NCBI GenBank assembly: GCA_903931945.1 | Contig: CAIZEI010000192.1 | Span: 1 to 43,981, forward strand | Source: an uncultured Hyphomicrobiales bacterium | GTDB taxonomy: Bacteria; Pseudomonadota; Alphaproteobacteria; Rhizobiales; Beijerinckiaceae | Direction: 5' to 3' | Length of the DNA: 43,981 nucleotides | In this document: piece after piece, positions 9,305-35,060 of the stretch | Layout of the letters: each line of letters opens with the position of its first letter | How positions within the stretch are numbered: position 1 is the stretch's first letter | Translations under genes and position numbers: made by a program | Notes under the pieces: generated by a model | What the model was told of the DNA's origin: nothing | The model's input: the letters and a program-made list of their open reading frames with translations, nothing else | Databases searched by the model: none

Positions 9305-10339
9305 CTACTTCTTCACATAAGGCCCCAAATCCCGCGCCGCCCTACGCGCGAAACTCAGATCAACCGACTGCTCCACCGTCACCGGCGCCTCGATCCAGCC
9401 CTGGCTGGCGTAGAATTTCAGATCCTTGGTCAGGCTCGGGATGTTGAGCGCGCCATCAGGCTCGGCGCCTTGCGCGGCGATAGCACGATAAACAGCGGGG
9501 TTCTTCAATTCAGTCATCTCCGTCAGGACACCAATAACTTCGTCGGCGTTGGGCCCTGCGATTTTACCGTTCTTCAGGGAATCATTGTAATCGCGCTGGC
9601 CGCGCAAAAAGGCGCGCATGAAGCGCAAGGCCGCGTCGGGCCGCTCGGTAATGAATTTCGAGGAATAGAGCAACACCGCAGCCTCGTGGCCGGGGTCCAT
9701 AACATCGTCGCTCGTAACCTTGGTGGCGCTGCCGGCGTTGATCGCCTGCGAGGCCTGCGGCTCGGTGGTGAGGCCCATATCGATCTTGCCATTGGCCAGC
9801 GCCACGACGTGGTTGGGATAGATGAGATAAACTGGCTCGATATCGCCGAAGGTCAAACCAATCGATGTAAGATAGGCGTTCAATGTCGCCGTGGCGCTTG
9901 AGCCGATGACCGGCATAGCGACTTTCAGCCCCTTTATGTCGGTTGGCTTTGAATAACGACCACTGCCGATGAGATCGTTGCGCACGATCAGGAGATTGTG
10001 CCCATAGCCTGGCGGCGCGTTGGAGACGCTCGCCACCATCTTCGCGCCGATGCCGCGGGCGACAAAATTGTAAAAGCCCGCGCTTGATGAGGTCGAGCCA
10101 GCGTCAAGCTCGCCCGCTCCAAGGGGCGTGAGCGTATTGTTGCCCATGCCTGTGAAAATCTGCTCGACCTTCAGTCCCTCGGCGTGGAAATAACCCTTTT
10201 TCTGGGCCAGAAACGCGCCCGCGTCGCTGGACGTGCCGGTGATCGCCATTTTTATTTCGTCGAGCGCTTGCGCGTCGGCGCGCGCCACCGCCACGAGAAA
10301 TGCCCCTGCTATCGCCGCGGACCTGAGCAGCCAGCTCAT
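9305..10339 (-). CDS. NMT1/SsuA-like periplasmic substrate-binding protein
   Basis: A 344-residue exported binding protein of the NMT1/THI5-SsuA type. ATG 10339 is chosen over 10375 because GGGAGG lies eight bases before it and a clean signal peptide follows (SWLLRSAAIAGAFLVAVARA, cleaved near DAQA). The mature start KMAITGTSSDAGAFLAQKKG, then YFHAEGLKVEQIFTGMG and LGAGELDAGSTSSS, are the family signatures. The middle carries LKVAMPVIGSSATATLNAYL. Such receptors usually feed an ABC importer for sulfonates, taurine, nitrate or thiamine precursors, but no permease or ATPase gene is near. It follows the TctC gene at 10429 by 90 bases and probably shares its transcript. Confidence 0.86.
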   Translation of the reverse strand: MSWLLRSAAIAGAFLVAVARADAQALDEIKMAITGTSSDAGAFLAQKKGYFHAEGLKVEQIFTGMGNNTLTPLGAGELDAGSTSSSAGFYNFVARGIGAKMVASVSNAPPGYGHNLLIVRNDLIGSGRYSKPTDIKGLKVAMPVIGSSATATLNAYLTSIGLTFGDIEPVYLIYPNHVVALANGKIDMGLTTEPQASQAINAGSATKVTSDDVMDPGHEAAVLLYSSKFITERPDAALRFMRAFLRGQRDYNDSLKNGKIAGPNADEVIGVLTEMTELKNPAVYRAIAAQGAEPDGALNIPSLTKDLKFYASQGWIEAPVTVEQSVDLSFARRAARDLGPYVKK

Positions 10340-10428
10340 GCCATCGCCTCCCTTTTGTGCTCGCGCCTGTCGCACGGCGGCGCTCGCGCCAATCTAGGTT
10401 TGAACCCAAGCGTCGCGCAAGACCGCGC

Positions 10429-11478
10429 TTATTTCACCACGTCCGATTGCTTTGGCTCGATCGCTTCCTTTACGCGGGCGCGAATATCCGCTGAAGTCGT
10501 CAAGATCGTGTCGATCAGCGAGGCGAGCTCCAATCCCTGCATGGTGTGAAGTACGGCGTGCTCCTTCCGGGCGTCCGCGATGAATTCAGGGTCGCGCAGG
10601 GTTTCTTCGAAGGCCTTGCGCAACGCCGCCACGCGCTCGGGCGGAACGCCCGGCGTTGTCGCCAGCGGTCGCCCGACGCTCGCTGCCCGCGACATGAAAT
10701 CGACGAGTGGTTTGTCTGCTGGCTTCACCGGGAGATCGGCAAGCAATGGCGTGTCGGGGATTGCCTGTTCCTTGACGAGGCCCGCCTGAATCAGCGGGAT
10801 AATCAGCTTGTCGGGAATCCAGTTTGGCCGGTCGGCCATGTAATCGCTATAGGGATTGGTGCCGCGGCCCTCGACCTCGCCTTTTTCCATGGCGAAATCG
10901 ACATCGGCTCCGCCAGCGTAACCAAAGATCATCTTGAATTTCGTGCCGAGCACGTTGTTGTAGAAGGCAGGATATTGCACTGACGCCGAGCCTGCGCCTG
11001 TCGTGCCTATGGTGGTTTCGTGCGCCATAGCGTCTGCGATGGTCTTGGTCGGCGAGGTATGCCAGACCGCCAGCAACTGCGGGGAATTGTCGACATTCGC
11101 GATCCAGTTGAACGAGCGCAGATCGGCCTTGAGTTGTGACGACAGCCCCAGCGCCTGATCGCTGGCAAGTCCCTGGCTGACGATCGAAATCACCGAGCCA
11201 TCGCGCGGCGCCACATTCGCCATGTAGTTGGCCGCGACAATGCCACCGCCGCCCGGCATGTTGTTCGGCGTGACGACCGGCTCACCGGGGATGTGACGAC
11301 CGATGTGCCGCGCCAGCAAGCGCGAGAGCAGATCATAGCCGCCACCCGGCGGTGTGCGGATTATGAAGCGCATCTGTTTGCCGGGGCCGGCGTAGAAGTC
11401 GCGCACGGGATCAGCGCGCGTGGACGCGGCGCCAGCGATAGCGGCGAGGGCCGTGGCGAGGAACAATCGACGGCGCAT
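10429..11478 (-). CDS. TctC/Bug-like periplasmic receptor 1
   Basis: A 349-residue tricarboxylate-transport-type (TctC/Bug) receptor. ATG 11478 is preferred: GGAGG is five bases upstream and the signal peptide MRRRLFLATALAAIAGAASTRA follows. The ligand-loop motif is PPGGGYDLLSRLLARHIG, then PNNMPGGGGIVAANYM, APRDGSVISIVSQG and AMEKGEVEGRG. It begins 15 bases after the stop of the second monooxygenase, so the two are almost certainly co-transcribed and the receptor may capture that enzyme's substrate. Its closest relative in the window by eye is receptor 3 (shared GTKFK, GY-GGAD-D-AME-GEV-GRG). TctA and TctB membrane subunits are absent. Confidence 0.88.
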   Translation of the reverse strand: MRRRLFLATALAAIAGAASTRADPVRDFYAGPGKQMRFIIRTPPGGGYDLLSRLLARHIGRHIPGEPVVTPNNMPGGGGIVAANYMANVAPRDGSVISIVSQGLASDQALGLSSQLKADLRSFNWIANVDNSPQLLAVWHTSPTKTIADAMAHETTIGTTGAGSASVQYPAFYNNVLGTKFKMIFGYAGGADVDFAMEKGEVEGRGTNPYSDYMADRPNWIPDKLIIPLIQAGLVKEQAIPDTPLLADLPVKPADKPLVDFMSRAASVGRPLATTPGVPPERVAALRKAFEETLRDPEFIADARKEHAVLHTMQGLELASLIDTILTTSADIRARVKEAIEPKQSDVVK

Positions 11479-11493
11479 GAAATCCTCCACAGT

Positions 11494-12828
11494 CTATTGC
11501 GCGTAGCGGCTTTTCGGTCGGGCGAGGCCGAGATGATCGCGCAAGGTGGTTCCCTCGTATAGCGTGCGATAAAGTCCGCGTCGCTGCAACTCCGGCACGA
11601 CCAGGTCAACGAAATCGGTCAATCCCCCCGGCAACACCGGCGGCATGATGTTAAAGCCATCGGCGGCGCCGGTCTCGAACCATTCCTGCATGGCGTCGGC
11701 GATATCGGTTGGCGAACCGTGAATGTCGAAATGGCCCCGTCCACCGGCGATTTGCGTGTAAAGCTGACGGATGCTCAGCCGCTCGCGCTTGGCCATGTCG
11801 CTCATGAGCGTCGCGCGGCTTGAGATCACTTTGTCGGGCGGAATTTCAGGCAAGGGACCATCCACGTCATGGCCGCGCAGATCAAGCCCGGTGCGTTGCT
11901 CAAGCAGCGCCAAGCCTACTTCCGGATGTATCAGCATTTGCAGCCGCTCGCGTTTCTCGAACGCTTCTGCGGCGTTGCGACCGACAGTGACGAAAAACCC
12001 CGGCATGATTTTCAATGCGTCGCGATCGCGGCCAAACCGCGCCATACGCCCTTTCACATCGGCGTAAAAAGCACGCGCCTCCTCAATGGTCGGCGTGGCG
12101 GTGAACACGACTTCGGCGGTCTCCGCCGCAAGCTCCCGCCCTTCTTCCGAGGCGCCCGCCTGCACCAGAACCGGACGACCCTGCGGCGAGCGCGCAACGT
12201 TCAGGGGGCCGCGCACCTGGAAATGCTCGCCGACATGGGCGAGTTCATGCATCTTTTCCGGATCGAAGAAAATCCCGCTGTCGCGGTCACGCAGGAAGGC
12301 GTCATCATCCCAACTGTCCCACAGTCCGACCACGACCTCGGCGAATTCGCGCGCCCGTTTGTAGCGCGCCTCCTTCGGCGGATGTTCGCCACGGCTGAAA
12401 TTCATGGCGGCGGTGTGGTTGCCCGTGGTCACGAGGTTCCAGCCACCCCGCCCATTGCTAACATGATCAAGCGAGGCGAATTTGCGCGCGACGGAGAATG
12501 GTTCTTCATAGGTGGTGCTCGCGGTACAAACGAGACCGACGCGCGTAGTCACTGCGGCAAGCGCCGCCAACAGGGTGAAAGGCTCGATCCAGGCCACATA
12601 GGACATCCGCCTGAGGCCATCGGGATCGAACACAGCTGTCGCGGTCGCGGAATCAGCCGAGAACAGCATGTCGAACAGGCCGCGCTCGGCGATTCGCGCG
12701 AGTTCGATGAAATGTGGGAAATTGACGCCCGCGTCGGCTTGCGACTCTGGATGGCGCCAGCCTGCGAGGTGGTGACCGGCAGGGCGCAGAAACATCCCCA
12801 GCTTGATTTGGCGCGGCGCGGCGGTCAT
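11494..12828 (-). CDS. LLM-class FMN-dependent monooxygenase, NtaA/SnaA/DszA family (copy 2)
   Basis: A 444-residue paralogue of the enzyme at 7676-8989. Shared landmarks are KLGMFLRPAGHHLAGWRHPE, TYEEPFSVARKFASLDHVS, GRGGWNLVTTGNHTAAMNFS, VGLWDSWDDDAF, SPQGRPVLVQAGASEEGREL and AADGFNIMPPVLPGGLTDF. Divergence in the segment before GLWDSWDDD and in the insertion loops suggests a different substrate. The start at ATG 12828 has GGGAGGAAT directly upstream. It leads a same-strand unit, monooxygenase 2 - receptor 1 - NMT1-like binding protein, with monooxygenase 1 further downstream. Like copy 1 it needs an unlinked FMN reductase. Confidence 0.9.
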   Translation of the reverse strand: MTAAPRQIKLGMFLRPAGHHLAGWRHPESQADAGVNFPHFIELARIAERGLFDMLFSADSATATAVFDPDGLRRMSYVAWIEPFTLLAALAAVTTRVGLVCTASTTYEEPFSVARKFASLDHVSNGRGGWNLVTTGNHTAAMNFSRGEHPPKEARYKRAREFAEVVVGLWDSWDDDAFLRDRDSGIFFDPEKMHELAHVGEHFQVRGPLNVARSPQGRPVLVQAGASEEGRELAAETAEVVFTATPTIEEARAFYADVKGRMARFGRDRDALKIMPGFFVTVGRNAAEAFEKRERLQMLIHPEVGLALLEQRTGLDLRGHDVDGPLPEIPPDKVISSRATLMSDMAKRERLSIRQLYTQIAGGRGHFDIHGSPTDIADAMQEWFETGAADGFNIMPPVLPGGLTDFVDLVVPELQRRGLYRTLYEGTTLRDHLGLARPKSRYAQ

Positions 12829-13132: not shown

Positions 13133-14182
13133 TTAGTTCTTGCGTGTCATACCCAGCACCGATGCGATGTGGGTGACTTGCGCGTATTGATCCTTGAGGG
13201 CAGCGGCGAACGCGTCGACATCCAAAGGCGTCGCTGGTTGCCCGGAGAGGAGCAGCCGATCGGCGACGATTTTATCTTCCAAAACAGCGACCACGTCCGC
13301 CGCGATCCGCCGTCTGAGTTCGAGAGGCATATCGCGCGGGCCAAGAAGGCCCAGAACAGGGCTCGCGAGAAGAGACGGGAAGCCCTCTTCAACGACTGAG
13401 CCAATGTCGGGCGCGTTGGGGGCTCGCGCACGGCCGTTGATCGCGATGATTTTGATCTTACCGGTCTCTGCGTAGGTTCGCATGGCCGCGTAGGACTGCA
13501 TGGACAGCTGAATTCGGTTTTCGCCAAGATCGAGCGGCGAGGTGGTGATGTCGCGATAAGGAACCTTGGCGATGCCAAGACCTTCTTCTTTGACGAAACC
13601 ATCAAAGACAAATTCCGAAAACCCCGGCGCTACAGCGTAGCTTGTCTCGCGGGGCTTGGCGCGAGCCAGCGCTACAAATTCCTTGATATTGGAAATACCG
13701 ATGCTTCCAGGCACCGCGACCGCGATCTGAACCTGGGCCACTCCAGCGATTGGCGTGAGATCGGTCTCGGGATCAAAACGAATATCTTTCTCGGTATAGG
13801 GCTGCACGACAAAAGCGCTGCTGGGTCCGAAAAACAGAACGTGATCGTCTTTGGCGTTCGAGACTGTCCCGAGCGATAGCAGTCCATCGCCGCCCGGCTT
13901 GCCATCGATAATGATGGGTTGGCCCCATTTTTGTTGTAGCTTGTCGGTTAGCAGCCGGGCGGCCGTGTCGGCACCCGAGCCTGGACCGAATGGCAGCACA
14001 AGGCGGACTGGACGCGTCGGCCACTGCTGGGCAAGGCTCGTCCTCGCCGCAACCACCTGAATGGCGACCGCAACGACGGCCGCCACAGTGACGCGGTAAA
14101 AATTGCCAGCGGTTCGCTGAATGAGAGATGTCCCCGCGCCTGCTCCTGAAAGCGGCAAGAATAGACGACGCGGAAGATTCAC
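13133..14182 (-). CDS. Classical Bug-family (TctC-type) receptor 2
   Basis: A 349-residue receptor that differs from the other seven in the window and looks like a standard Bug protein. After a long N-terminal region with a hydrophobic stretch (VTVAAVVAVAIQVVAARTSLA) comes QQWPTRPVRLVLPFGPGSGA, then DTAARLLTDKLQQKWGQPII, the usual Bug start. The GTG at 14182 has no clear ribosome-binding site and leaves an unusually long signal region, so the true start may be downstream, near the FYRVTVAAV stretch. It has no close co-directional partner: 304 bases separate it from the monooxygenase unit. Bug proteins bind small carboxylates such as aspartate, glutamate, citrate or nicotinate; the ligand here is unknown. 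Confidence 0.85.
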   Translation of the reverse strand: MNLPRRLFLPLSGAGAGTSLIQRTAGNFYRVTVAAVVAVAIQVVAARTSLAQQWPTRPVRLVLPFGPGSGADTAARLLTDKLQQKWGQPIIIDGKPGGDGLLSLGTVSNAKDDHVLFFGPSSAFVVQPYTEKDIRFDPETDLTPIAGVAQVQIAVAVPGSIGISNIKEFVALARAKPRETSYAVAPGFSEFVFDGFVKEEGLGIAKVPYRDITTSPLDLGENRIQLSMQSYAAMRTYAETGKIKIIAINGRARAPNAPDIGSVVEEGFPSLLASPVLGLLGPRDMPLELRRRIAADVVAVLEDKIVADRLLLSGQPATPLDVDAFAAALKDQYAQVTHIASVLGMTRKN

Positions 14183-14627: not shown

Positions 14628-15746
14628 ATGCGTGGCGTATTTGGGCTTCACCACGTCGTAGTTGGCAATATAGCCATCGCTGCTCTTTTCTCCGGATCCG
14701 CAGGCGCGCAATCCCTGCGGGTCGATCCGATCCGCGTTCCTGTCAACGCGGATGGGCATACGGCAGAACTCGTTGGAGCGGTGGTGCGCCTCGACGACGG
14801 TGCGTTGCATCCTTTGGCCATTGTCAATCATGGCTCGCCGCGCGATCCCGCTGACCGTCCGAAAATGACCCCCTACGGCATGTGGTTCCAGGCGTCGGCA
14901 CTGGCGCGACGTGGCTGGAGCGTGGCCATGTTCCTGAGGCGCGGCTACGGCAAGTCGGGCGGCGATTGGGCGGAAAGTTACGGTCCCTGCGATAAGCCGG
15001 ACTATATCAGCGCAGGCCGCGCCGCCGCCCATGATATCGAAGCCGTCGCCACCTATATGGAAAAGCAAAGTTACGTTTTAGCCGGTTCATGGATTAGTGT
15101 CGGCGTTTCGGCTGGCGCTTTCGCCACGGTCGCCCTTACCGCCGACTCGCCGAAGACTCTCGCAGCGGCGATTGCCTTCGCACCGGGACGCGGCTCGACC
15201 GCCCCCGACAAACTGTGCGGCGACCAGGAACTGGCGCGGGCCTTCGCGCGATTCGGCGAGACATCGCGAACGCCGCTATTGTGGGTCAACGCCAGCAATG
15301 ACCATTTCTTCGGGCCAAAGTTGGTTGACGAATGGGTTGCGCGCTTTTCCAGCCAAGGCGGCAAAGTCACTCATGTCGCTGTTGGTCTCTATGGACAGGA
15401 TGGCCATGACCTGCTCAGCGCGGGCGGCGAGAAAATTTGGGCGCCAATAATCGATCATTTTCTCGAAACTCAGGGACTGAAACTTCGCAGTGAGCCAGCC
15501 GCTGCGACTCGCCCCGCTGTCGCGCCGCCATCAACCCTTGACGACGAGGGCAAAAAGGCTTTTGGCGCCTATCTTGACGCCGCGCCCAACAAGGCTTTCG
15601 CGGTTGGTCCGGGATCTAGATACGGCTGGGCGAGCGCCAGGGCGACCGCCGCTCAGGCTCGCGCCGACGCCATGGCTTTTTGTGCAGGAAATGGTGCGGC
15701 GAGCAAATGTCGGGTGTTGAATGCCAATGATTTGAATGATCAGTGA
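14628..15746 (+). CDS. Exported alpha/beta hydrolase with a small C-terminal extension domain
   Basis: A 372-residue protein. ATG 14628 is preferred to 14541 because a GAGAGG sequence lies about ten bases upstream and a signal-like segment follows (VVVGNIAIAALFSGSAGAQS). The hydrolase core has the oxyanion strand PLAIVNHGSP, MFLRRGYGKSGG, the nucleophile elbow GVSAGAFA (Gly-x-Ser-x-Gly), an acidic-residue strand LLWVNASNDHFF and the catalytic His in YGQDGHDLL, as in dienelactone-hydrolase-type esterases. The last 55 residues (KAFAVGPGSRYGWASARATA, AQARADAMAFC and a second Cys in KCRVL) form a separate Cys-containing module seen at the C-termini of exported alphaproteobacterial proteins. Substrate unknown. 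Confidence 0.78.
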   Translation: MRGVFGLHHVVVGNIAIAALFSGSAGAQSLRVDPIRVPVNADGHTAELVGAVVRLDDGALHPLAIVNHGSPRDPADRPKMTPYGMWFQASALARRGWSVAMFLRRGYGKSGGDWAESYGPCDKPDYISAGRAAAHDIEAVATYMEKQSYVLAGSWISVGVSAGAFATVALTADSPKTLAAAIAFAPGRGSTAPDKLCGDQELARAFARFGETSRTPLLWVNASNDHFFGPKLVDEWVARFSSQGGKVTHVAVGLYGQDGHDLLSAGGEKIWAPIIDHFLETQGLKLRSEPAAATRPAVAPPSTLDDEGKKAFGAYLDAAPNKAFAVGPGSRYGWASARATAAQARADAMAFCAGNGAASKCRVLNANDLNDQ

Positions 15747-17914: not shown

Positions 17915-18943
17915 TCACTTCTGTGACCGGAATATGGCGGCGAGGCGGTCGCTCACTGCGATCGGCGACGCCACAATGTTCTGCACGACCTTCTGAACTT
18001 CCAGGCCGGAAGCGCTGAAGACATCGAGACGCTGATTGCGCGCATCCACCTGGAATGCCGGGTCAAGCAGCATCTCGTCGAAGGCGGTGCGCAGGATTGC
18101 GACTCGTTCCGGCGGCGTGTCCGGCGTGGTAAACACTGGACGGCCAATTTCCACGGGCGAGGAAAGGAGCGTTACGAGGTCGCGATCGGTTGCGTCCGTC
18201 ATAAGCTCAGTAAGAAGCGGCGCCTCCGGCAGATCGGGCGCCTTGGTCAGTCCAATCTGGACCAGAATGTTGATCTTATGATCGCGCAACCATTCTGGTT
18301 GTGTCGCTTTCCACGACGCCCAGGAATTGCTGCCCCGTCCCATCACTTCGCCCCGCTCCATCGCCAGGTCGATGTCGGCGCCGCCTGGATAGCCGAGCAC
18401 GACCTTGAATTTCGTGCCCAAAATCGCATTCATGATGACAGGATATTGGAATGAAGGACTGCCGCCGGTTGCTCCGACGGCAACTTCGCGCTGCTTGGCG
18501 TCCTCGATGGACTTCACGCCTGAAGCCGCCCATGTCGCGGTGGTATTGTTGTCGACATTTGGATTCCCGATGAAGTTGAATCGACGCATATCGAAACCAA
18601 GCGGATCGCCCAGCGCCTGCTCGAGCGCCAGGGACTGATCGGCCGTCGCCAGCACCGTGCCATCGCGGGGCGCTGCCAAGTAGACATAGGCTGCGGCGAT
18701 ACGGCTCGCCGCGCCGGGCATGTTTTCCAAGAAAATAATGGGGCGCCCGGGAATATGGTCGGCGAGATGGCGCGCCACGAGACGCGCGTAAGTATCGTAC
18801 CCGCCGCCAGGCGAATAGCCGATGATGAAGCGGATCTTCTTGCCCTTGTAGATATCATCGGTCGCGAACGCGTTCTCTGTCAGCCCGCCGAAGGCGAGAG
18901 CGAGCAGAACAATTCGGATTGTCGCTGAAATGCCCAGAGTCAT
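17915..18943 (-). CDS. TctC/Bug-like periplasmic receptor 3
   Basis: A 342-residue receptor. The start at ATG 18943 gives a signal peptide MTLGISATIRIVLLALAFGG ending near AFA/TDDIYKG. Motifs: YSPGGGYDTYARLVARHLAD, ENMPGAASRIAAAYVYLAAP, then RDGTVLATADQSLALEQALG and LAMERGEVMGRGSNSW. It is the last gene of a probable four-gene operon, methyltransferase - decarboxylase-fold protein - cyclodeaminase-type enzyme - receptor. It follows the enzyme stop at 18969 by 25 bases, which ties its ligand to that pathway. An upstream in-frame extension runs into the previous gene and is rejected. Confidence 0.88.
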   Translation of the reverse strand: MTLGISATIRIVLLALAFGGLTENAFATDDIYKGKKIRFIIGYSPGGGYDTYARLVARHLADHIPGRPIIFLENMPGAASRIAAAYVYLAAPRDGTVLATADQSLALEQALGDPLGFDMRRFNFIGNPNVDNNTTATWAASGVKSIEDAKQREVAVGATGGSPSFQYPVIMNAILGTKFKVVLGYPGGADIDLAMERGEVMGRGSNSWASWKATQPEWLRDHKINILVQIGLTKAPDLPEAPLLTELMTDATDRDLVTLLSSPVEIGRPVFTTPDTPPERVAILRTAFDEMLLDPAFQVDARNQRLDVFSASGLEVQKVVQNIVASPIAVSDRLAAIFRSQK

Positions 18944-18968
18944 GCGCGATCTCAGTTCTTGTTGCGAC

Positions 18969-24435: not shown

Positions 24436-24772
24436 TGCATTTCCTCCATCTGTCATTGTCTTGCCGCAATCGCGCCCATGTGATCGCAAGATTGACCGGT
24501 ATCAATTGGCTTGACAAGTCAAAGGGATCGCCGGGATCAATCAAATCCTGGATATCGATCGTCCTGGCTCAAAAAATCCGACATTTCTCGCGCCGCCGGC
24601 TATTGTCGACGCTGCCGTTGACAGCCCGTTCTCGCCGGTAGACGATACCAGGAGCAATCTTCGGGGACGGATTCAGGCGCGCTTCGATGGATTTGAAGCC
24701 CTGAGTAATTCTTGAGCCTGAGACTTTTATTCAAGTCTCGATCCGTCCAGCGCACAAGAAAAGGAGTGAAAC
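24436..24772. other. Divergent promoter region between receptor 4 and the amidohydrolase gene
   Basis: 337 bases with no gene. It carries a TTGA-N6-TCAA box (24492-24505) and just beyond it an inverted repeat TTGAC-AA-GTCAA (24511-24522). Both are nearer to the receptor gene. Confidence 0.5.
24492..24505. promoter_or_regulatory. FNR/FixK-type binding box
   Basis: TTGACCGGTATCAA keeps both half-sites of the FNR/FixK/Dnr consensus (TTGA-N6-TCAA, here in the TTGAC-N4-ATCAA form). It is centred about 64 bases upstream of the receptor 4 start codon (minus) and about 275 bases from the amidohydrolase start. The position relative to any transcription start is unknown. Confidence 0.4.
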
Positions 24773-25934: not shown

Positions 25935-26462
25935 ATGCCGCTTGACGCAGTTGATAAAGGACAGGTCGCGAACGAAACGGAGGAAATGCGCCGCAAGCGT
26001 GAGACGATCGTTGCCAATAGCCCGCCGGCGCAACCGTTTCGATTGCGGGCTGAGCTGCTGAAACAGGGCCGCAGCAACCAGATCGTCGCAGACACTGGCA
26101 ATATGTGGGTCAACCTCAAGGTCTATGCCTCGGGCGGCGAGAATGGATTGCACAATCACACCGACGAAGACCATTTTCATTTGGTGCTTTCCGGCAGCGC
26201 ATGTTTTTTTGGCCCGCGTGGCGAAGAACTGAATTGCCAGCAATATGAAGGAATTATGCTGCCAGCTGGTTGCTTCTATCGCTTTCATGCGACCAGCTCC
26301 GAACCCCTCGTACTGCTGCGCGTTGGCGCGCGTCTCCCCGATGTGACGGAGGACACGCGTTACAATGTCTATGGCGATCCTCTACCGTCCGATTCCAAAG
26401 AAAACGGAAGGGTGGAGGTCATCAAGCGCGACGGGGAATTCTGGGGCGCCGCTGCCAGGTGA
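25935..26462 (+). CDS. Cupin-domain protein
   Basis: A 175-residue single-cupin protein starting at ATG 25935 with AGGGAG eight bases upstream. Cupin motif 1 is GLHNHTDEDHFHLVLSG (H73, H75, H80 and H82 are candidate metal ligands). Motif 2 is around YEGIMLPAGCFYRFHATSSE, with its His near residue 117. The N-terminal 30 residues are charged and helical (EEMRRKRETIVAN). It follows the amidohydrolase in one transcription unit. It may be a metal-dependent dioxygenase, isomerase or sensor-like cupin; the sequence alone does not decide. Confidence 0.83.
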   Translation: MPLDAVDKGQVANETEEMRRKRETIVANSPPAQPFRLRAELLKQGRSNQIVADTGNMWVNLKVYASGGENGLHNHTDEDHFHLVLSGSACFFGPRGEELNCQQYEGIMLPAGCFYRFHATSSEPLVLLRVGARLPDVTEDTRYNVYGDPLPSDSKENGRVEVIKRDGEFWGAAAR

Positions 26463-26535: not shown

Positions 26536-27603
26536 TTAATCAGCCTCCGACATCAGTTTTTTCATCGCGTCGAATGTTGCTGGAGATACACGCGACATCT
26601 TCTCGATGGAATCGGCTATCTCCTGTCCGGTCACGGGACTGATGTCGAGCCCGATCTTCGCGGCTTCCTCGCGAAATCTGGGGTCGCGATGGACTGCATC
26701 AAACGCCGCTCGCAATGCGCCTGCGCGATCGGCAGGTATTGCGGGCGGCGCCATAAATGGCCGGCTCATCGTCAGGATCGGCGTCTCGGCAAATTCGACA
26801 AGCTCGCGTGGACTGCCGATTGGCGCGAGTTCCCGAGCGGTTGGTATATCGGGGAGTTCGGGATGGCGCGTGGCGCGCGCCGCCTGGATGAGAATTTTGT
26901 ATCCACTAGCGGGCTCTAACCATTGCGGTCTGATCGCCTTGACTTCGGAATAGTCGAACATCCGACCATCGATCTCTCCGCGTTCGAGCGCAAGAATCAA
27001 GGCGGGGGAGTTGGGATAGGAAAGCACCTGCTTCATATTCAGACCCAAAACGTCGCGCAATATTCTCGGCATGTCCGCGCTTCTGCCTCCGGTTCCCGAG
27101 CCGCCAAGTATGAGTGGAGGGCCGTCAGGGCGGGTGGCCTCGGAAAGCGTTTCTGCGGGTGCGCCGCCGCGCACCAACAAGATGAATGCGTCATTGGCGA
27201 AACTCGATGACGAGCCGATCCAGGTAAATTTACGTGGGTCGAAACGCGCTCCATTGTTCGTTCCGAGCAGACCGAGGAGGGGAACGTCGCTGCCAATTTC
27301 GCCAAACACCGAACCATCCCTGGGCGCTAGCGAATAGATGTAATTGGCTGCAGCCAGACTGCCCGCGCCGATCATGTTCTGCGCTACGATATTCGGATTG
27401 CCCGGAATATACTTCCCCATATGGCGCGCCAGCAGGCGCGCGAGCAGGTCATAACCGCCACCCGGTCCATAGCCGATCATCAAATTAATTGTCTTGCCTT
27501 GATAGAATGTTGCAACCTGATCGTCCGCGCGCGCGGAACCGGGCGCGCCAAATACGACGCGCAACATCGCCAACAATGCATGGATCGCAATCGATCGTTT
27601 CAT
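26536..27603 (-). CDS. TctC/Bug-like periplasmic receptor 5
   Basis: A 355-residue receptor from ATG 27603 (MKRSIAIHALLAMLRVVFGA), with AGGGTGGCGA before it. After the signal region comes DDQVATFYQGKTINLMIGYG, PGGGYDLLARLLARHMGKYI, QNMIGAGSLAAANYIYSLAP and RDGSVFGEIGSDVPLLGLLG. It departs from the others in the middle (GGSGTGGRSADMPRILRDVL, LALERGEIDGRMFDYSE), including a missing GTK-F-GY block, which suggests a different ligand. It converges with the cupin gene and is divergent from receptor 6 across 187 bases. It has no enzyme partner on its own strand. Confidence 0.88.
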   Translation of the reverse strand: MKRSIAIHALLAMLRVVFGAPGSARADDQVATFYQGKTINLMIGYGPGGGYDLLARLLARHMGKYIPGNPNIVAQNMIGAGSLAAANYIYSLAPRDGSVFGEIGSDVPLLGLLGTNNGARFDPRKFTWIGSSSSFANDAFILLVRGGAPAETLSEATRPDGPPLILGGSGTGGRSADMPRILRDVLGLNMKQVLSYPNSPALILALERGEIDGRMFDYSEVKAIRPQWLEPASGYKILIQAARATRHPELPDIPTARELAPIGSPRELVEFAETPILTMSRPFMAPPAIPADRAGALRAAFDAVHRDPRFREEAAKIGLDISPVTGQEIADSIEKMSRVSPATFDAMKKLMSEAD

Positions 27604-27790
27604 TCGCCACCCTAGGATCGTTTTGTCGCCCAAATCTCTCTGGCAAGTTTAGGAGCGCACTGCAAAAGAACAAAGCGGTTTGATCCAATGCGCGCAACAT
27701 TGCCTTTCCTGTCGCGCCTGCCTAGCTTGAGCGATCCGATAGCCCGACGAACGGGCAGTTTGCGATCGCTTCGAGCCGGGAGGGGAGCAC

Positions 27791-28837
27791 TTGCCGTTAA
27801 GCACTCACAGGCGCATCCCGGCTGTCGCTTTGGTCGCGCTCGCCGGCTTTGCCATGCCTGGCTCGCCTGTCGCATGGGCGCAGACTGTTTCGATGGCGGG
27901 ACAACGTATTGTGCTGGTGGTCGGATCGCCGGCAGGCGGTGGATATGACGTCTATGGACGTCTTGTCGGGCGCCACCTCGGCGCCATGTTGCCAGGCAAC
28001 CCCAACGTTGTGGTCGAAAACATGCCGGGCGCCGGTTCCCTGATTGCCGCCAATTGGCTTGCACACTCGGCCCCCAAAGATGGAACCGCCATTGCGATCC
28101 TGCCAAACGCAACTCTTTTCGAACCCTTGTTCGGCAACACAAATGCGCATTTCGATTTGCGAATGATGAATTGGCTGGGCAGTCTGAATTCACAAACGCC
28201 CATCGCCGCCGTGTGGTCGCCGTCGCCGTTTCAAACCGCAGGGGATCTCTTCAACCAGGACGTTGTGATTGGCGCGAGCGGGGCGGCTTCAGACGAAGCC
28301 CGACTGCCCCGACTGCTCAATTCGCTGATACAGACAAAATTCCGCGTCGTGGATGGCTATCCCGGAACCGCAGGCATTGCGCTGGCCATGGAGCGCGGCG
28401 AGGTTCAGGGTATCGTCGGCGACGGGCTCGACAGTATCAAGGCGACGAACGGCAGTTGGCTGCGCGACCGGAAGATTCGCATTCTTATGCAGGTAACCGC
28501 GAGCCGCGATAGCGAACTTCCCGACGTTCCAGCCGCGCTTGAATTTGTCAGCCCGGATAACCACGATGTCCTGGAATTTCTCATTTCGCGTTTTACTTTT
28601 GGCAGATTGTTTATGGCGCCACCCGGAGCGCCGGCTCCGATCGTTGCGGCGCTTCAACAGGGCTTCAGAAAAATGGTCGACGATAAGGAATTCAGACGCG
28701 ATGTTGAACGCTCCAACATAACGATCAAGTTCGCCGGCGCCGAGGAAGTGGCCACGACCCAAAACAGGCTCGTCGCCAGCCCTCCGCAAGTGATTGAGCG
28801 CGCGACCGAGGAGTTACGCAAGACTGACCCGCGCTAA
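27791..28837 (+). CDS. TctC/Bug-like periplasmic receptor 6
   Basis: A 348-residue receptor starting with TTG 27791, preceded by GGGAG with four bases between. Signal peptide LPLSTHRRIPAVALVALAGF through MPGSPVAWA, cleaved before QTVS. Motifs: GSPAGGGYDVYGRLVGRHLG, VENMPGAGSLIAANWLAHSA, then PKDGTAIAILPNATLF with the rare PKDG instead of PRDG, and LAMERGEVQGIVGDGLDS. It is the only receptor in the 17-32 kb section on the plus strand. It forms a head-to-head pair with receptor 5, so the two may share a control region (27604-27790). An IS3 scar begins 150 bases downstream. Confidence 0.88.
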   Translation: MPLSTHRRIPAVALVALAGFAMPGSPVAWAQTVSMAGQRIVLVVGSPAGGGYDVYGRLVGRHLGAMLPGNPNVVVENMPGAGSLIAANWLAHSAPKDGTAIAILPNATLFEPLFGNTNAHFDLRMMNWLGSLNSQTPIAAVWSPSPFQTAGDLFNQDVVIGASGAASDEARLPRLLNSLIQTKFRVVDGYPGTAGIALAMERGEVQGIVGDGLDSIKATNGSWLRDRKIRILMQVTASRDSELPDVPAALEFVSPDNHDVLEFLISRFTFGRLFMAPPGAPAPIVAALQQGFRKMVDDKEFRRDVERSNITIKFAGAEEVATTQNRLVASPPQVIERATEELRKTDPR

Positions 28838-28987: not shown

Positions 28988-29262
28988 GGTGGAGGAGAAC
29001 GCCAATTTCAAGCGGATGCCGGCGGATGCGATGCCGGCCAATGTCGCGTTAAAAAATCTTCCGGTAAGGAAATGACGACGCTCGCCGCCGACGGAAAGCT
29101 GTCGCCCATCTGGTGGTCGACCACGGGATGAGCGAACGACGGGCGCATAAAGCCGTCGGCTGCTGCCGCATGACCGTGAGATACCAGACCACACGACTGG
29201 ACGGCGGCGAATTGCGCGACCGGATGAAGGCCAACGCGCATGAACGCGGTCGTATCGCCTAT
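28988..29262 (+). pseudogene. IS3-family remnant (orfA C-terminus and orfB N-terminus)
   Basis: A frame from 28988 reads VEENANFKRMPADAMPANVA and LKNLPVRK before a stop at 29068, the degenerated end of an IS3 orfA (compare LEDENARLKRLLADAMLDN). The overlapping orfB frame follows with RRKAVAHLVVDHGMSERRAH, KAVGCCRMTVRYQTTRLDGG, RMKANAHERGRIAYQAL, the classic IS3 orfB N-terminus up to HERRRFGY, and stops being similar at about 29262. No catalytic DDE part or inverted repeat is present. The break coincides with the 3' end of the convergent RidA-like gene. Confidence 0.75.
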
Positions 29263-29948
29263 CAGGCATTGCGATGCGCGGTGACTTCGACCTCAACGAG
29301 CTTGCCAGGCACCGAGAATCCCTCAACGAAGAATATCTCAAAGCGAGGTGGAAAGGGTTTGGCGAATTCGCTGAAACATTGCCGAAGTTCTCTGGCGTCC
29401 TCATTCTCATGCAGGTAGCAAGAGACGTTGACGATTTGATCCCAGCCGCTGCCCGCCTCTTTTAGATAGTCCTGCACGCGTGGCAGAATGTCGTGCAAGA
29501 GCTGCGCCTCCAGGGTTGCAAGCTCCGAAGTATTGCCTGACAGGACGAGCAGCGTCCCTAACTCGACGTAACAAATTGGCGCCCTGGGCGGCGCATATTC
29601 CTTCGCGACTTTGGCGACGCCAGGTGGTGGGCGGACTGCGATCAGGTCGAGCGCCACCAGAGCATCGGACGCAAAATGCCTGGGGGCGATGTAACTCGAA
29701 CTCGCCGCCCGGTCCTTTCCCTTAAGCGCCTCGAAGCGCGATTTGCTGATCGCATCGCGCGCGGGCCGATCGACGCCGAAAACACGGCTTCGGATCGTGT
29801 CACTCAAGGTCAGGCCGTGACTCGCGAGCGCGGCGCGAGCCTGGTCGAAGACAGCCTCGCCCTGTTCGGCCGCAGTCTTTCCACTTCGCGCTTCACAGCT
29901 TATTTGGATGAACTCCCAACCGAGCCAGGTCAAGCTTGATATTTTCAT
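29262..29948 (-). CDS. Two-domain RidA/YjgF-family protein
   Basis: A 228-residue protein, double the usual RidA length, made of two YjgF-like halves. The first (1 to about 115) has EAVFDQARAALASHGLTLSD, TIRSRVFGVDR and the DALVALDLIAVRPPP end. The second (about 120-228) has YVELGTLLVLSGNTSELATL, DILPRVQDYLKEAGSGWDQI, VNVSCYLHENEDARELRQCF, PPRFEIFFVEGF and VEVEVTAHRNA. RidA proteins hydrolyse reactive enamines and imines; an Arg that normally binds the substrate carboxylate is not obvious in the first half. Its presence fits the imine-forming cyclodeaminase-type genes of the island. The 3' end abuts an IS3 remnant, and the last few codons could be affected. Confidence 0.8.
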   Translation of the reverse strand: MKISSLTWLGWEFIQISCEARSGKTAAEQGEAVFDQARAALASHGLTLSDTIRSRVFGVDRPARDAISKSRFEALKGKDRAASSSYIAPRHFASDALVALDLIAVRPPPGVAKVAKEYAPPRAPICYVELGTLLVLSGNTSELATLEAQLLHDILPRVQDYLKEAGSGWDQIVNVSCYLHENEDARELRQCFSEFAKPFPPRFEIFFVEGFSVPGKLVEVEVTAHRNA

Positions 29949-30266: not shown

Positions 30267-31277
30267 CTATTGGTATATTTTCCGCGCCTCCGCGACGATG
30301 TCCGTCGACGCCGCGCGCATTCCATTGAATACCGCCTCGGCTTGAACGCCCGTCAGCGGCGCGATAATTTCCTGCGCCTTGGCGAGATCGCCAGCGAAAA
30401 TCTCATCCTTCATGACCGCGTCGAAACCGTGACGCAAAATCTCCAGGCGATCAGGCGGTGTCTGGCGCGACATGACGAAGGGCCGACCAAGCTTGTCTGC
30501 CTCGTAGAGAAAGTTCAGCAGCCGCCGTTGTTCATCCGTTTTCGCGAGATCGCGCACATAGACCGCGCTGTCGGGCACACCGAGCGTCGGCTTTTCGGCG
30601 AAGCGGACGAAGGGATGGGCTTTGCCCTCGCGCAGCCAGTCGGGCGGAATTCCGTTGAAACCGCTGCAATCGCCATCGAGTTCGCCGCGCTCGACGGCGA
30701 GCCGCTGTTCGGTGGCGCCAGGAAAGCCGAACACCAGCTTGATGTTGGCGCCGAGGATAAGCCTCAACGATTGAGCGTTGACGAAGTTGCTCGCGCCCGC
30801 GCCTGTGGTGCCCATGATGAAGGGCGCGTCGGCCCCTCGCTTGATCAGATCGTCCCAGGAAGCGATGCCATTCGGCCCATAGCCATAACAGACGCGGGAG
30901 AAATCGCCGCTGACGACGCCAAGCCAGGAGTATTCGCGCAGGTCGATTTTGACTTTTTCCGGCGTCACCAGCGATTGCGTGATAACGCCCGGCAGGAACA
31001 CGCCCATCGTCAGCCCATCGCGCGGCTGCGTGCTGGCGATATAATGCAACGCGGTGAGGCTCGCTGCGCCCGACAGATTTTGTACGACGAAATTGGGATT
31101 GCCGGGGATATAGGCGCCCATGCGCCGCGCCAGCGCGCGCGCGACAATGTCGAAACTGCCGCTGGCGGTCGCGCCGACAACCATGGTGACGGTCTTGCCC
31201 CTGTAGAAATCTTCTGCGCCGGCAGCGTTGCCGAAAGGCGTCAGCGCCGCGAGGACAAGCGCGACCTGGCGGATCAT
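30267..31277 (-). CDS. TctC/Bug-like periplasmic receptor 7
   Basis: A 336-residue receptor, the most divergent of the seven-member subtype: the loop is ATASGSFDIVARALARRMGA (SGSFD in place of GGGYD), followed by VQNLSGAASLTALHYIASTQ and PRDGLTMGVFLPGVITQSLV, later GTTGAGASNFVNAQSLRLIL and LAVERGELDGDCSGF. Two internal Cys (VCYGYGPNG and GDCSGF) are unusual in the set. The short signal peptide is MIRQVALVLAALTPFGNAAGA. Its ATG overlaps the stop of the binding protein at 31274 by four bases (ATGA), so the two are translationally coupled. The pair is bracketed by direct copies of repeat family 2. Confidence 0.87.
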   Translation of the reverse strand: MIRQVALVLAALTPFGNAAGAEDFYRGKTVTMVVGATASGSFDIVARALARRMGAYIPGNPNFVVQNLSGAASLTALHYIASTQPRDGLTMGVFLPGVITQSLVTPEKVKIDLREYSWLGVVSGDFSRVCYGYGPNGIASWDDLIKRGADAPFIMGTTGAGASNFVNAQSLRLILGANIKLVFGFPGATEQRLAVERGELDGDCSGFNGIPPDWLREGKAHPFVRFAEKPTLGVPDSAVYVRDLAKTDEQRRLLNFLYEADKLGRPFVMSRQTPPDRLEILRHGFDAVMKDEIFAGDLAKAQEIIAPLTGVQAEAVFNGMRAASTDIVAEARKIYQ

Positions 31278-32209
31278 GTCGACAGCGCCGCCGCGACGCC
31301 ATATTTTTCGCGCATGGCTTTATAAAAGCCTTCCGCGTCGAGTTCTTTGTAAACGCCGTCGTCGACATGCGCGCGGGGGTCGCTGGACATGCCGGGATAA
31401 TCGAGGACATTGATGATGTTGCGCGCGCCTTCCCAGGTGACGTCCGCGTCGAGCGGCGTCGCGGCGCGGAAATTCTCATAGGTTATATCGATGATCCCGG
31501 GGTCGCTCAGGCCAAGCTCGCGCGCCAGCAGCGGCTTGGCGCGCACGGCGTCTGTGTATGCGAGATAGTTGCCCTCGACCGTCGCCTTCAGGAAGGCCTT
31601 CACGCGATCGCGATGATCGCGCAGAAAGGCGCGATGCACCGCAAGCCCGCTGTAAAGCCAGGGCGTGCGATCGGAGAGCAGATCGACAATGGGCGTGAGC
31701 CCCATCGCCAGCGCCTGCCCGCGCGTTGGTTCGCCCATCAGCGATGCGGCGACCTCGCCGTTACGAACGGCGTCGAGACGAACCACCCCGATTTCCTTGA
31801 TCGTGACGTCGGAACGCTGGAGGCCAAGACGCCTGAGAGCCAGCGTTGTCGCCGAATCGGTTTCCGAACCCGCGCTGCTGATGCCAACGATTTTTCCCTT
31901 GAGATCGGTCGCGTTCCGCACACCTGGCGCGAGGAACATCGTGTTGCGAATGATATTGCTCAGCGAGCCAATTTCGACCACGTCGCCGCCAAGCGCATTG
32001 GCGCGCACGACCGAGGACATGCCGATATGCATGAGATGAACGTGACCCGACGCGAGATCCGGCCCGGTGTTGACCCCGCCGACGACTGGAACGATTTCGA
32101 CGCGCAATCCCTCGCGCTCGTAAAAGCCAGCGTCGCGCGCCATCCAGATAGCGAAAAACGTATTGGCCGGCGAGGCAAGCCCAACCTTGAACAAAGCCAG
32201 CTCCGGCAT
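31274..32209 (-). CDS. NMT1/SsuA-like binding protein without a signal peptide
   Basis: A 311-residue NMT1/SsuA-type protein: FKVGLASPANTFFAIWMARD, AGFYEREGLRVEIVPVVGG, GHVHLMHIGMSSVVRANALG, LKGKIVGISSAGSETDSATT, EVAASLMGEPTRGQALAMG, FLRDHRDRVKAFLKATVEGN. The start at ATG 32209 is supported by AGGGAG six bases upstream, yet no hydrophobic signal sequence precedes the first strand, so it is predicted to stay in the cytoplasm unless the true start is missed. It is translationally coupled to receptor 7. It may be a cytoplasmic sensor, an enzyme of the THI5/decarboxylase kind, or a binding protein that lost its signal peptide. Confidence 0.85.
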   Translation of the reverse strand: MPELALFKVGLASPANTFFAIWMARDAGFYEREGLRVEIVPVVGGVNTGPDLASGHVHLMHIGMSSVVRANALGGDVVEIGSLSNIIRNTMFLAPGVRNATDLKGKIVGISSAGSETDSATTLALRRLGLQRSDVTIKEIGVVRLDAVRNGEVAASLMGEPTRGQALAMGLTPIVDLLSDRTPWLYSGLAVHRAFLRDHRDRVKAFLKATVEGNYLAYTDAVRAKPLLARELGLSDPGIIDITYENFRAATPLDADVTWEGARNIINVLDYPGMSSDPRAHVDDGVYKELDAEGFYKAMREKYGVAAALST

Positions 32210-32871: not shown

Positions 32872-33184
32872 ACGAGAGCAGGACCAAAGGAGCTTCCTTC
32901 TCTGGCTTTCAATGGAAACGCGAACATTTCTGCGGGCGCGGGTTTTCTCGCGCCGATCGCTGATCGCGCCGCCAGCGCGCCTTGCATCGCTTTGTCGTTA
33001 AGCGTTTGACCGCAACGGTGGAATACAGGCTAGCCGCTAAAGTCGCAAAGATGGCCAGATGGAGGGCAATTGGCTTTGGCAAATCTCCGTCGGCGTCAGA
33101 GATCACCCAACCGTGGCCGCTCGCTTGCGCCGCGTCCGGGATTGCGCATAAACTCGCTTGATCCGATGCGGAGTCACGCCCGTC

Positions 33185-33991
33185 ATGCCCCTCAGCCGCG
33201 CTAATGGGATCGACATTCGTTACGAGGCGGCCGGCGCTGGGCAGCCGCTCGTTCTTATCCATCCGCTTCCGTTCGATCATCGGGTCTGGCTCTATCAACA
33301 GGCGAGCTTTTCAGATCGCTTCCGCGTGATTGCGATGGATTTGCGCGGCTGGGGCGCATCATCAAAACCGACCACGCCTTTCACGCTCGCCGACATGGGT
33401 GCGGATGTCATGCGGGTCCTGGCCAACGAGGGCGTCGCAGCAGGCGCGATCGTCATGGGTTGCAGCATCGGCTCGAAAATCGCGCTAATGCTCGCGTGCG
33501 ATCATCCAGAGGTCTTTTCCGCAGCGATCCTTGTGGGCGGCAACAGCGGAGCGCAAAACCAGTTCGACCACCGGATCGCCGCCTATCGCGACAACGCACG
33601 GTCAGGAACCTTGCGCGACTACCATCTTGGCCATTTGCGCTATGGCGTGACGCCGGCTTGGGCCGACACGCCCATCGGTCGCTATCTCCTTGACGGTTTC
33701 GCTGATCGTGGCGTTGGCCTCGACCCAGACAACATCGCGCGGGTGTTTCAGGCGCTGACGGTTTCAGACCTCACCGCGAAGCTGCCGGCCTTTCGCACGC
33801 CGACGCTGATTGTAAACGGCGAACACGACAACGCTTTGCCCGGAGGGCTGAAGACGGCTTCGCTCATCCCCCACGCGCGGCATGAAATCCTCGCCGGCGC
33901 CGGCCATTGTTGCTTCATCGAAAAGCCCGCGGCTTTCGACGCGCTGGTGGTCGACTTCCTCGCCGCCAACCACCTTTTGCCCCTGGAATAA
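33185..33991 (+). CDS. Alpha/beta hydrolase, 3-oxoadipate enol-lactonase-like
   Basis: A 268-residue cytoplasmic alpha/beta hydrolase from ATG 33185 (MPLSRANGIDIRYEAAGAGQ). Visible parts: the oxyanion region PLVLIHPLPFDHRVW, VIAMDLRGWGASSKP, the nucleophile elbow VMGCSIGSKIALMLA (Gly-x-Ser-x-Gly with Ser in CSIG), the Asp strand LIVNGEHDNALP and the catalytic His in AGAGHCCFIEKP. This is the layout of 3-oxoadipate enol-lactone hydrolases and related C-C or ester hydrolases. Receptor 8 starts 28 bases downstream on the same strand, so enzyme and receptor appear to form one operon. A GTG or ATG further upstream (33158) has no site. Confidence 0.85.
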   Translation: MPLSRANGIDIRYEAAGAGQPLVLIHPLPFDHRVWLYQQASFSDRFRVIAMDLRGWGASSKPTTPFTLADMGADVMRVLANEGVAAGAIVMGCSIGSKIALMLACDHPEVFSAAILVGGNSGAQNQFDHRIAAYRDNARSGTLRDYHLGHLRYGVTPAWADTPIGRYLLDGFADRGVGLDPDNIARVFQALTVSDLTAKLPAFRTPTLIVNGEHDNALPGGLKTASLIPHARHEILAGAGHCCFIEKPAAFDALVVDFLAANHLLPLE

Positions 33992-34019
33992 CCACGCGCC
34001 TTTCTTTGGGAATCCACCC

Positions 34020-35060
34020 ATGCAATCCGCACCCTTCGCTTTGCCGTTAACTGTCGCCCTGTCGCTCGCGGCAACGACAGTCGAAACGTCGGCGCAAACC
34101 ACCGAAGCCTTTTACCGCGGCAAGCAGATCACGATGATCATCGCTGGAGGCGTCGGCGGCGGCTATGATCTTTACGCCCGCACCTTTGGGCGCTATCTCG
34201 GCCGTCACATCGCTGGCGAACCGCAGATCATCCCGAAGAATATTCCCGCGGCCGGAGGACTCGCAGGCGCGAACGCACTGTTCACGAACACCGATCACGA
34301 CGGGCTGACCATCGGCGCATTGACGAGCAGCAGCACGCTCGATCCGCTGTTCGCATCGCCCGGGGCGCGCTATGACTCGTTGAAACTGAACTGGCTTGGC
34401 TCCATCGGCAAATTGCAGAATGTCTGCGTGACCTGGCATACGAGCGCCATAAAGACGGTGGACGATCTGCGCAGCCGTGAGGTGCTCGTTGGCGGCTCCG
34501 GCGCGACATCGGATTCCGGCGTGATGCCCAGGGTGCTCAACGCGCTTCTCGGCACGCGCATGAAGGTTATCACCGGCTATGACGCAGGCGCGGCGACCGA
34601 AATGGCGGTGGAACGGGGGGAGATAGAAGGCGTGTGCGGGCTCGGCTGGTCAACTTTCAAGGCTGCGCGGCCCGACTGGATCAGAGACCGGCTGATCAAT
34701 GTCATCTTGCAAATGGGGATGAAAAAGCACAGGGAATTGCCCGACGTTCCCATGGCTCAGGACTATGTCGCCGACCCTGTCAAAAAGCGCGTGCTTGAAC
34801 TGATCCTGTTGAGGCAGGAGCTTGGCCGGCCGTTCGCCGCGCCGCCTGACACGCCGGCGGACCGGTTGGCGGCATTGCGTTCCGGCTTTGAGGCAACGCT
34901 GAAGGATCCTCAATTTCTCGCCGACGCCCCCAAAGCGCTCATGGAAATCAATCCGCTGGATGCAAGCGCGACCACGAGCCTGCTGAACGGCGCCTACGCA
35001 AATCCGCGCGCCATCGTCGAACAGGCTGCGGCTCTGGTGGCGCCAGCCGATGCGAAATGA
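34020..35060 (+). CDS. TctC/Bug-like periplasmic receptor 8
   Basis: A 346-residue receptor. ATG 34020 is used: it is close behind the hydrolase and leaves a proper signal peptide (MQSAPFALPLTVALSLAATT, cleaved near VETSA/QTTEA). Motifs: GGVGGGYDLYARTFGRYLGR, KNIPAAGGLAGANALFTN with a T-DHDGLTIGA loop instead of APRDG, WHTSAIKTVDDLRSREVLVG, GSGATSDSGVMPRVLNALLG and AVERGEIEGVCGLGWST. The changed DHDG loop near the ligand pocket suggests its own specificity. It probably serves the hydrolase with which it is co-transcribed. Confidence 0.88.
   Translation: MQSAPFALPLTVALSLAATTVETSAQTTEAFYRGKQITMIIAGGVGGGYDLYARTFGRYLGRHIAGEPQIIPKNIPAAGGLAGANALFTNTDHDGLTIGALTSSSTLDPLFASPGARYDSLKLNWLGSIGKLQNVCVTWHTSAIKTVDDLRSREVLVGGSGATSDSGVMPRVLNALLGTRMKVITGYDAGAATEMAVERGEIEGVCGLGWSTFKAARPDWIRDRLINVILQMGMKKHRELPDVPMAQDYVADPVKKRVLELILLRQELGRPFAAPPDTPADRLAALRSGFEATLKDPQFLADAPKALMEINPLDASATTSLLNGAYANPRAIVEQAAALVAPADAK

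Follow-up and report, generated by a model that had tools for sequence, protein, structure and literature searches.

Multiplied divergent TctC-type receptors of an uncultured Hyphomicrobiales bacterium probably share one unlinked fused TctA-TctB permease

Which permease serves eight TctC-type receptors that are encoded within 26 kb without a permease gene beside them? The question is raised by contig C192 (GenBank CAIZEI010000192.1), a stretch of 43,981 nucleotides from an uncultured Hyphomicrobiales bacterium of the family Beijerinckiaceae (draft genome G000; 5.03 Mb, 203 contigs, 98.5% complete), which we refer to as the window. The partner of orphan TctC-type receptors, the receptor component of tripartite tricarboxylate transporters (TTT), has been a standing question since the Bug genes of Bordetella were counted. 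An original prediction for the window had described an island of eleven receptor-type proteins at 9.3-35.1 kb with no transporter, and had proposed that they form a ligand-capture set using one unlinked TctAB, or act as sensors or ligand carriers independent of transport. The answer that we favor on sequence evidence, with a probability of about 0.6, is that seven of the eight receptors belong to a separate TTT branch whose multiplied receptors share one unlinked fused permease.

Genes were called with a custom script. The eight receptors, which Pfam, BLAST and tree evidence assign to the TctC/Bug type as predicted, are listed here with their bit scores for the Pfam profile PF03401.

10429..11478, minus strand: R1, divergent TTT receptor (33.8 bits; divergent side of the receptor tree; signal-like N-terminus)
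13133..14182, minus strand: R2, canonical TctC/Bug receptor (99.8 bits; canonical side of the tree)
17915..18943, minus strand: R3, divergent TTT receptor (24.5 bits, under the cut-off; divergent side)
23410..24435, minus strand: R4, divergent TTT receptor (37.8 bits; AlphaFold model and PDB matches, see below)
26536..27633, minus strand: R5, divergent TTT receptor, start in 27567-27633 (21.6 bits, under the cut-off; divergent side)
27791..28837, plus strand: R6, divergent TTT receptor (40.1 bits; divergent side)
30267..31277, minus strand: R7, divergent TTT receptor (no Pfam match; BLAST to R5 36%, E 2e-47; divergent side)
34020..35060, plus strand: R8, divergent TTT receptor (no Pfam match; BLAST to R4 37%, E 5e-73; divergent side)

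With wider bounds, the genes of R1, R3, R4 and R8 span 10429-11490, 17915-19084, 23410-24489 and 33882-35060, respectively. PF03401 scored over its cut-off for R1, R2, R4 and R6 and under it for R3 and R5, and gave no match at E 1e-3 for R7 and R8. The seven divergent receptors are thus divided into three over the cut-off, two under it and two unmatched. NCBIfam returned no name for any of the five TctC-type receptors submitted (R1, R2, R4, R7 and R8). A profile built from the seven divergent receptors matched 11 PDB sequences at E ≤ 0.01 (best E 2.7e-17), whose names, or a list in a review, mark them as TctC/Bug-type. The AlphaFold model of R4, the one receptor considered in this way, had a mean predicted local distance difference test score (pLDDT) of 90.9 and the two-domain TctC fold. 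In a Foldseek search of the PDB it matched 4x9t at E 1.1e-19, and the top 17 matches were all TTT receptors, with the next family at 1.4e-8. Hydropathy, a crude test, detected a hydrophobic N-terminal stretch in all seven divergent receptors, suggesting export. The seven carry most of the motifs named by the original prediction and are 26-44% identical to each other, which bears out its claim that they are not recent tandem copies.

A receptor tree of 243 rows (FastTree) was parted by one branch, with a support of 99, into a divergent and a canonical side. R2 fell on the canonical side and the other seven on the divergent side, consistent with the earlier assignment of seven receptors to a divergent subtype. 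From this genome the tree took in receptors longer than 220 residues and scoring above 110 bits; the canonical set comprises 31 of ~70, and the 131 divergent rows reach down to 110 bits. The canonical receptors were scored with a profile built from 30 sequences. Residues present in ≥75% of the divergent and <10% of the canonical receptors were, in R4 numbering, F28, G31, P62, G63, P65, M72, G183, L192, G201, Q228, R267, R279 and R284. Note that these numbers were raised by six for the trimmed start and that some canonical receptors have a gap at some of the positions.

The window receptors are a small part of the complement of this genome. The profile of the seven found at least 126 divergent receptors (E ≤ 1e-65) and ~19 weaker or partial divergent matches, in addition to ~70 canonical receptors; these are lower bounds, since 150 of 213 and 150 of 252 candidates were scored. 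With at least 215 receptor positions, the mean is 1.1 per 26 kb. The eight receptors per 26 kb of the window are the highest density found, followed by 7 (contig C136), 6 (C62) and 6 (C158). The island thus marks the highest point of a receptor expansion that extends over the whole genome. The label is misleading in that receptors lie on many contigs.

Profile searches of the genome gave two matches each to TctA and TctB. In agreement with the original prediction, none of these was located on C192, and no ABC (ATP-binding cassette) permease or ATPase was present among 40 window translations (38 different genes) scanned against Pfam. One TctA gene, on contig C33, is part of a TctB-TctA-TctC set with a canonical receptor. 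The other, on contig C159, encodes a TctA-TctB fusion, a single protein of 700 residues without an adjacent receptor, in which both domains are present: PF01970 at residues 22-442 (1.3e-120) and PF07331 at 514-668. The PF07331 match scored 27.1 bits in hmmscan (cut-off 29.1) and 31.1 bits, over the cut-off, in the genome search; two other fusions reached 46.3 and 44.4 bits. The closest public records to the C159 fusion come from uncultured Rhizobiales bins (93% and 87% identity), and further records of high identity carry Roseiarcaceae and Beijerinckiaceae in their titles. A dedicated TctAB per receptor, one finding by which the original prediction would have been refuted, was not seen.

The two permeases belong to different clades. 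In a maximum-likelihood TctA tree of 46 hand-selected rows, clade I (15 rows) was separated with a support of 100/100 from clade II, which comprises 21 fused permeases and 10 of class C, unfused TctA-TctB permeases ~38% identical to the fusion. Within clade II, class C had a support of 100/99, and the fusions formed one group at 85/91. The C33 permease is of clade I, and the C159 fusion is the only clade II permease found in the genome.

We then compared the receptors encoded near permeases of either clade. Clade I and class C loci were hand-picked from the list of fusion/TctA matches in the genus of this bacterium. At 18 of 20 class C loci the nearest receptor (≤3 kb) was divergent and on the same strand, with the permease first; the other two loci were cut by a contig end. 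At two class C loci (L225 and L281), the TctA and TctB genes share 4 bases, and the receptor gene begins 12 and 77 bases downstream, respectively. At clade I loci, the nearest receptor within 3 kb was canonical at 18 of 23 and divergent at four, and one locus had none. An alignment of 13 fusions (A2) retrieved 573 relatives from named genomes; the best 80, many from the same genus, were kept. Their nearest receptor within 3 kb was divergent at 45 loci and canonical at three. The 45 loci include Ralstonia soli, Caballeronia, Paraburkholderia, Alkalilacustris, Frigidibacter, Nitratireductor, Pelagibacterium and bins of several orders. Among the best 80, a divergent receptor was near the fusion at 7 of 8 Burkholderiales and 6 of 6 Rhodobacterales loci, and the combination was present in Burkholderiales, Rhodobacterales, Rhodospirillales and Hyphomicrobiales. 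Of 21 fusion loci from other genera, 16 had a divergent receptor within 3 kb and five had none; this sample was preselected, 16 loci for a known nearby divergent receptor, four as fusions without one at the cut-off and L285 for a receptor nearby. Less biased figures are the 45 of 80 given above and, obtained by comparing two match lists, 16 of 25 fusions outside this genome with a divergent receptor within 7 kb.

The same division was seen in the receptor tree. Its divergent side held all 131 divergent rows of this genome, all 23 receptors linked to fusions in other genera and all 18 linked to class C, as well as 13 of 17 receptors near fusions of the genus and four of the 23 clade I-linked receptors. 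On the canonical side were the 31 canonical receptors of this genome, 19 of 23 clade I-linked receptors and four canonical receptors near fusions of the genus. The divergent receptors of this genome intermingled with fusion-linked receptors from other genera, suggesting that much of their diversity predates the genus or was transferred between lineages.

Two observations on individual loci may be added. In three relatives within the genus (L152, L153 and L154), a conserved catabolic cluster ends in two divergent receptors on one side and, ~10 kb away, in a clade I TctC-TctA set on the other. A metagenome bin titled Bordetella parapertussis (L302), probably mislabelled and derived from another Burkholderiales, has canonical receptors 3-7 kb from its fusion.

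Receptor and fusion also occur together across genomes. Note that the multi-genome searches scored 20, 8 or 5 receptor and 15, 4 or 2 permease candidates per genome, so that counts are lower bounds and absences are weak. Within the genus, every one of the 51 genomes encodes divergent receptors (E ≤ 1e-70), and 50 of them have at least 20 each. Beyond the genus, with one genome sampled for each genus, none of 10 further genera of the family and two of 40 of the order gave a match. The fusion was present at ≥59% identity in 50 of the 51 genomes, although a few of them show just fragments at contig ends; its sequences fall into two sub-groups. The number of TctA genes per genome ranged from 1 to 11. 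In one genome (G018, 96% complete) the fusion is the sole TctA, beside at least 20 divergent receptors. Among 249 genomes of the order, including this one, a divergent receptor (E ≤ 1e-60) was present in 14 and the fusion (E ≤ 1e-130) in 17; both were present in 12, where ~1 would be expected (hypergeometric P 6e-15, relatedness not corrected). In a phylum sample of 398 genomes, a single additional genome (G598) had a divergent receptor passing the cut-off, likewise near a fusion.

Several findings weigh against a divergent branch tied to one unlinked fusion. The receptor nearest to the C159 fusion is 5.8 kb off, with other genes in between, and 32 of the 80 named fusion loci, some of them cut by contig ends, have no receptor within 3 kb. 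Within the genus, linkage of fusion and divergent receptor is at background (12 of 43 fusion loci versus 4 of 23 clade I loci, P 0.39), so that the pairing rests on other genera and on class C. At three clade I loci (L217, L223 and L224), a divergent receptor is encoded on the same strand at a distance of no more than 1.3 kb; thus, the two branches are not strictly separate. One genome of the genus (G049) has class C and no fusion. In the order, the cut-offs left two of the 14 receptor genomes (G117 and G305) without a fusion and five of the 17 fusion genomes (G089, G092, G139, G174 and G264) without a divergent receptor; G174, G264 and G089 encode a weakly scoring divergent-type receptor ≤600 bases from the fusion (133, 116 and 90 bits, respectively). 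Fusions of ~40% identity were found in 13 genomes of the phylum sample in which none of the five receptor candidates scored per genome passed the cut-off.

In conclusion, a family-level pairing of divergent receptors with clade II permeases is well supported by gene order and phylogeny, and copy number and clade membership suggest that one permease is shared in this genome. Divergent receptors would work with a clade II TctA, its TctB either fused behind it or encoded in an unfused TctA-TctB operon with the receptor. In the genus, the receptors would have multiplied and settled beside catabolic genes, with the fusion staying at one or few copies and mostly without an adjacent receptor. Because the C159 fusion is the sole clade II permease found, it is most likely fed by the seven receptors of the window and by at least 119 others, presumably with different organic acids. 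Each receptor may be co-produced with the enzymes that degrade its ligand and dock on the common carrier. The ligand-capture set of the original prediction would thereby have its unlinked TctAB in the C159 fusion, whose clade lies beside divergent receptors in other genera and orders. More generally, we give even odds to the view that TTT comprise at least two co-inherited lineages, each with its own receptor and permease clades, and that one fused TctAB acts as a hub for >100 interchangeable receptors in the divergent lineage of the genus (here ~126:1). In searches of open-licence papers we met no earlier account of a receptor-permease partnership by clade.

Alternatively, most divergent receptors could be sensors or ligand carriers with no role in uptake, presenting their ligands to envelope proteins such as histidine kinases or chemoreceptors. 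Some 126 receptors per permease are hard to picture as pure transport, and a sensory role is described in PMC5994714 for the Bordetella BctDECBA system; in Rhodoplanes, the same paper locates receptor genes in the vicinity of 14 of 22 kinase genes and notes a transcription factor next to 16% of the receptors. The neighbors of 123 divergent receptors in our genome were of another kind. Among 182 neighbors, the 118 on the same strand, of ≥120 residues and within 600 bases were scanned; they matched 135 varied Pfam families, mostly of catabolic enzymes, with TctC (7), NMT1 (7), cupin (6), amidohydrolase (5) and glyoxalase (5) as the commonest. The 25 commonest families, which are those listed by the scan, include no kinase, transcription regulator, chemoreceptor or membrane-transport family. 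As the divergent clade is, moreover, tied to a permease outside the genus, we regard a purely sensory or carrier role, the second proposal of the original prediction, as unlikely and found no support for it.

It is similarly improbable that the receptors serve other permeases, either the clade I TctAB on C33 or ABC, TRAP (tripartite ATP-independent periplasmic) or GltS-like carriers encoded elsewhere. Partners can change, as a TAXI (TRAP-associated extracytoplasmic immunogenic) receptor coupled to GltS illustrates (PMC12344293), and Rosa et al. report 41 Rhodoplanes receptors near ABC genes and 8 near TRAP genes (PMC5994714). The divergent receptors at L217, L223 and L224 would fit such a change, as would clusters of 7 ABC-ATPase-like and 6 ABC-permease-like proteins, named by eye, in 0.95 Mb of stretches of this genome. 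However, no membrane family often recurs beside the receptors, and clade I loci mostly have a canonical receptor nearest, as described above. A largely neutral birth and death of receptors, many unexpressed or redundant and the island without a joint role, is the least probable view: in-frame stops in 5 of the 126 divergent matches (contigs C162, C171, C78, C91 and C95), a sign of gene turnover, and a truncated cyclodeaminase gene in the window would agree with it, but 121 of the 126 matches have no such stop, divergent receptors are present in all 51 genomes of the genus, and many full-length enzyme families are found among the neighbors.

The eleven receptor-type proteins of the original prediction include three of the NMT1 type, with a substrate-binding protein (SBP) fold:

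9305..10339, minus strand: N1, NMT1/SsuA-like binding protein, predicted to be exported (PF09084 69 bits; signal-like N-terminus)
20166..21143, minus strand: N2, SBP-fold protein without a signal-like start by hydropathy (PF09084 28.8 bits, part of the profile)
31274..32209, minus strand: N3, NMT1-like protein without a signal-like start by hydropathy, upstream of R7 (PF09084 66.7 bits)

The family assignments hold, but because N2 and N3, other than N1, have no signal-like N-terminus, they are probably cytosolic SBP-fold proteins, and N2 may be enzyme-like. The exported receptors of the island would accordingly number nine rather than eleven. The genes of N3 and R7 overlap by 4 bases, an odd pairing of a cytosolic binding-fold protein with a periplasmic one. 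With 68 NMT1 (PF09084) matches, this is a second numerous binding-protein family of the genome. A recurrent new membrane partner beside the receptors was tried as a candidate; none was seen in the genome stretches or the neighbor scan.

The other genes of the island and its left border are mainly enzymes:

7676..8989, minus strand: NtaA/DmoA-type flavin monooxygenase, just left of the island (TIGR03860 548.5 bits)
11494..12828, minus strand: NtaA/DmoA-type flavin monooxygenase, adjoining R1 (TIGR03860 576.4 bits)
14628..15746, plus strand: alpha/beta hydrolase-like protein with a signal-like start (PF12146 26.5 bits, just under the cut-off; PF00326 22.8 bits, just over)
18969..20066, minus strand: ornithine cyclodeaminase/mu-crystallin family, adjoining R3 (PF02423 114.7 bits)
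21169..21909, minus strand: S-adenosylmethionine-dependent methyltransferase (PF08241 98 bits)
24773..25873, plus strand: amidohydrolase (PF04909 92 bits)
25935..26462, plus strand: cupin (PF07883 28 bits)
29262..29948, minus strand: RidA/L-PSP family (PF01042 50.9 bits)
33185..33991, plus strand: alpha/beta hydrolase, upstream of R8 (PF00561 85.6 bits)

Three divergent receptor genes closely follow one of these: R1 starts 15 bases behind the flavin monooxygenase gene at 11494..12828, and R3 and R8, each on the strand of its neighbor, lie ~25 bases behind the ornithine cyclodeaminase gene and 28 bases behind the alpha/beta hydrolase gene at 33185..33991, respectively. A second ornithine cyclodeaminase gene (22218-22880) is truncated at its 3' end, covering 5-201 of 314 profile positions, with no continuation in the next frames. 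A TMEM43-family membrane protein is encoded within the island (15868-17124); the family is better known from animals. Left of the island, a Sigma-70-family factor with DUF6596 is encoded beside a YCII-domain protein (5734-7310). To its right, genes for DabA and a DabB-like proton-translocating subunit (37940-41938), together with nearby genes for a PAPS (3'-phosphoadenosine 5'-phosphosulfate)-reductase-family protein (36994-37908), a DUF6671 protein and a LysR regulator (42045-42950), likely form an inorganic carbon uptake locus. Transposase-like remnants lie near the two window ends (2063-2320 and 43428-43898), the left one under the Pfam cut-off. An Rfam scan of the window found no RNA element at gathering thresholds.

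Two matched receptor and permease lineages reduce the orphan-receptor question to one gene, the fused TctAB. If the fusion is indeed a hub, a single additional small receptor gene could open access to a new nutrient. Such a hub would account for the expansion and offer a ready module for the engineering of organic acid uptake. Sorting by lineage would also guide the annotation of receptors that Pfam misses or underscores (four of the seven here).

The copy numbers have precedents. An alphaproteobacterial genome is known with hundreds of scattered TctC-type receptors, few TctAB and short arrays, as here, for which the shared-permease and sensing hypotheses have already been stated. The Bug receptors of Bordetella likewise include many orphans for few TctAB (PMC5994714, PMC5812351), but they are betaproteobacterial, and the solved Bug structures are ~20% identical to R4. 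A fused TctAB with TctA and TctB in one polypeptide is described for Paraburkholderia caribensis in PMC5812351, where the passage on such fusions calls them rare ('at least one case'); here, in contrast, 50 of the 51 genus genomes have one, and fusions near a divergent receptor are found in four orders. TAXI-TRAP, as outlined in the same source, also combines a distinct receptor subfamily with a fused membrane component, DctQM. The likeness is in arrangement only: TAXI-TRAP is a different superfamily, whereas the linked permeases here are TctA-TctB (PF01970/PF07331) and the receptor has the TctC fold. A precedent for a receptor and permease encoded apart is terephthalate uptake, for which both membrane subunits are needed (PMC5812351). 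TphC is a single receptor, experimentally tested, and ~21% identical to the R4 model; it is encoded in the tph catabolic operon and docks on TpiBA, whose genes tpiBA are in another operon (PMC8556258), so that, as in the genome studied here, the receptor gene lies with catabolic genes and the permease elsewhere.

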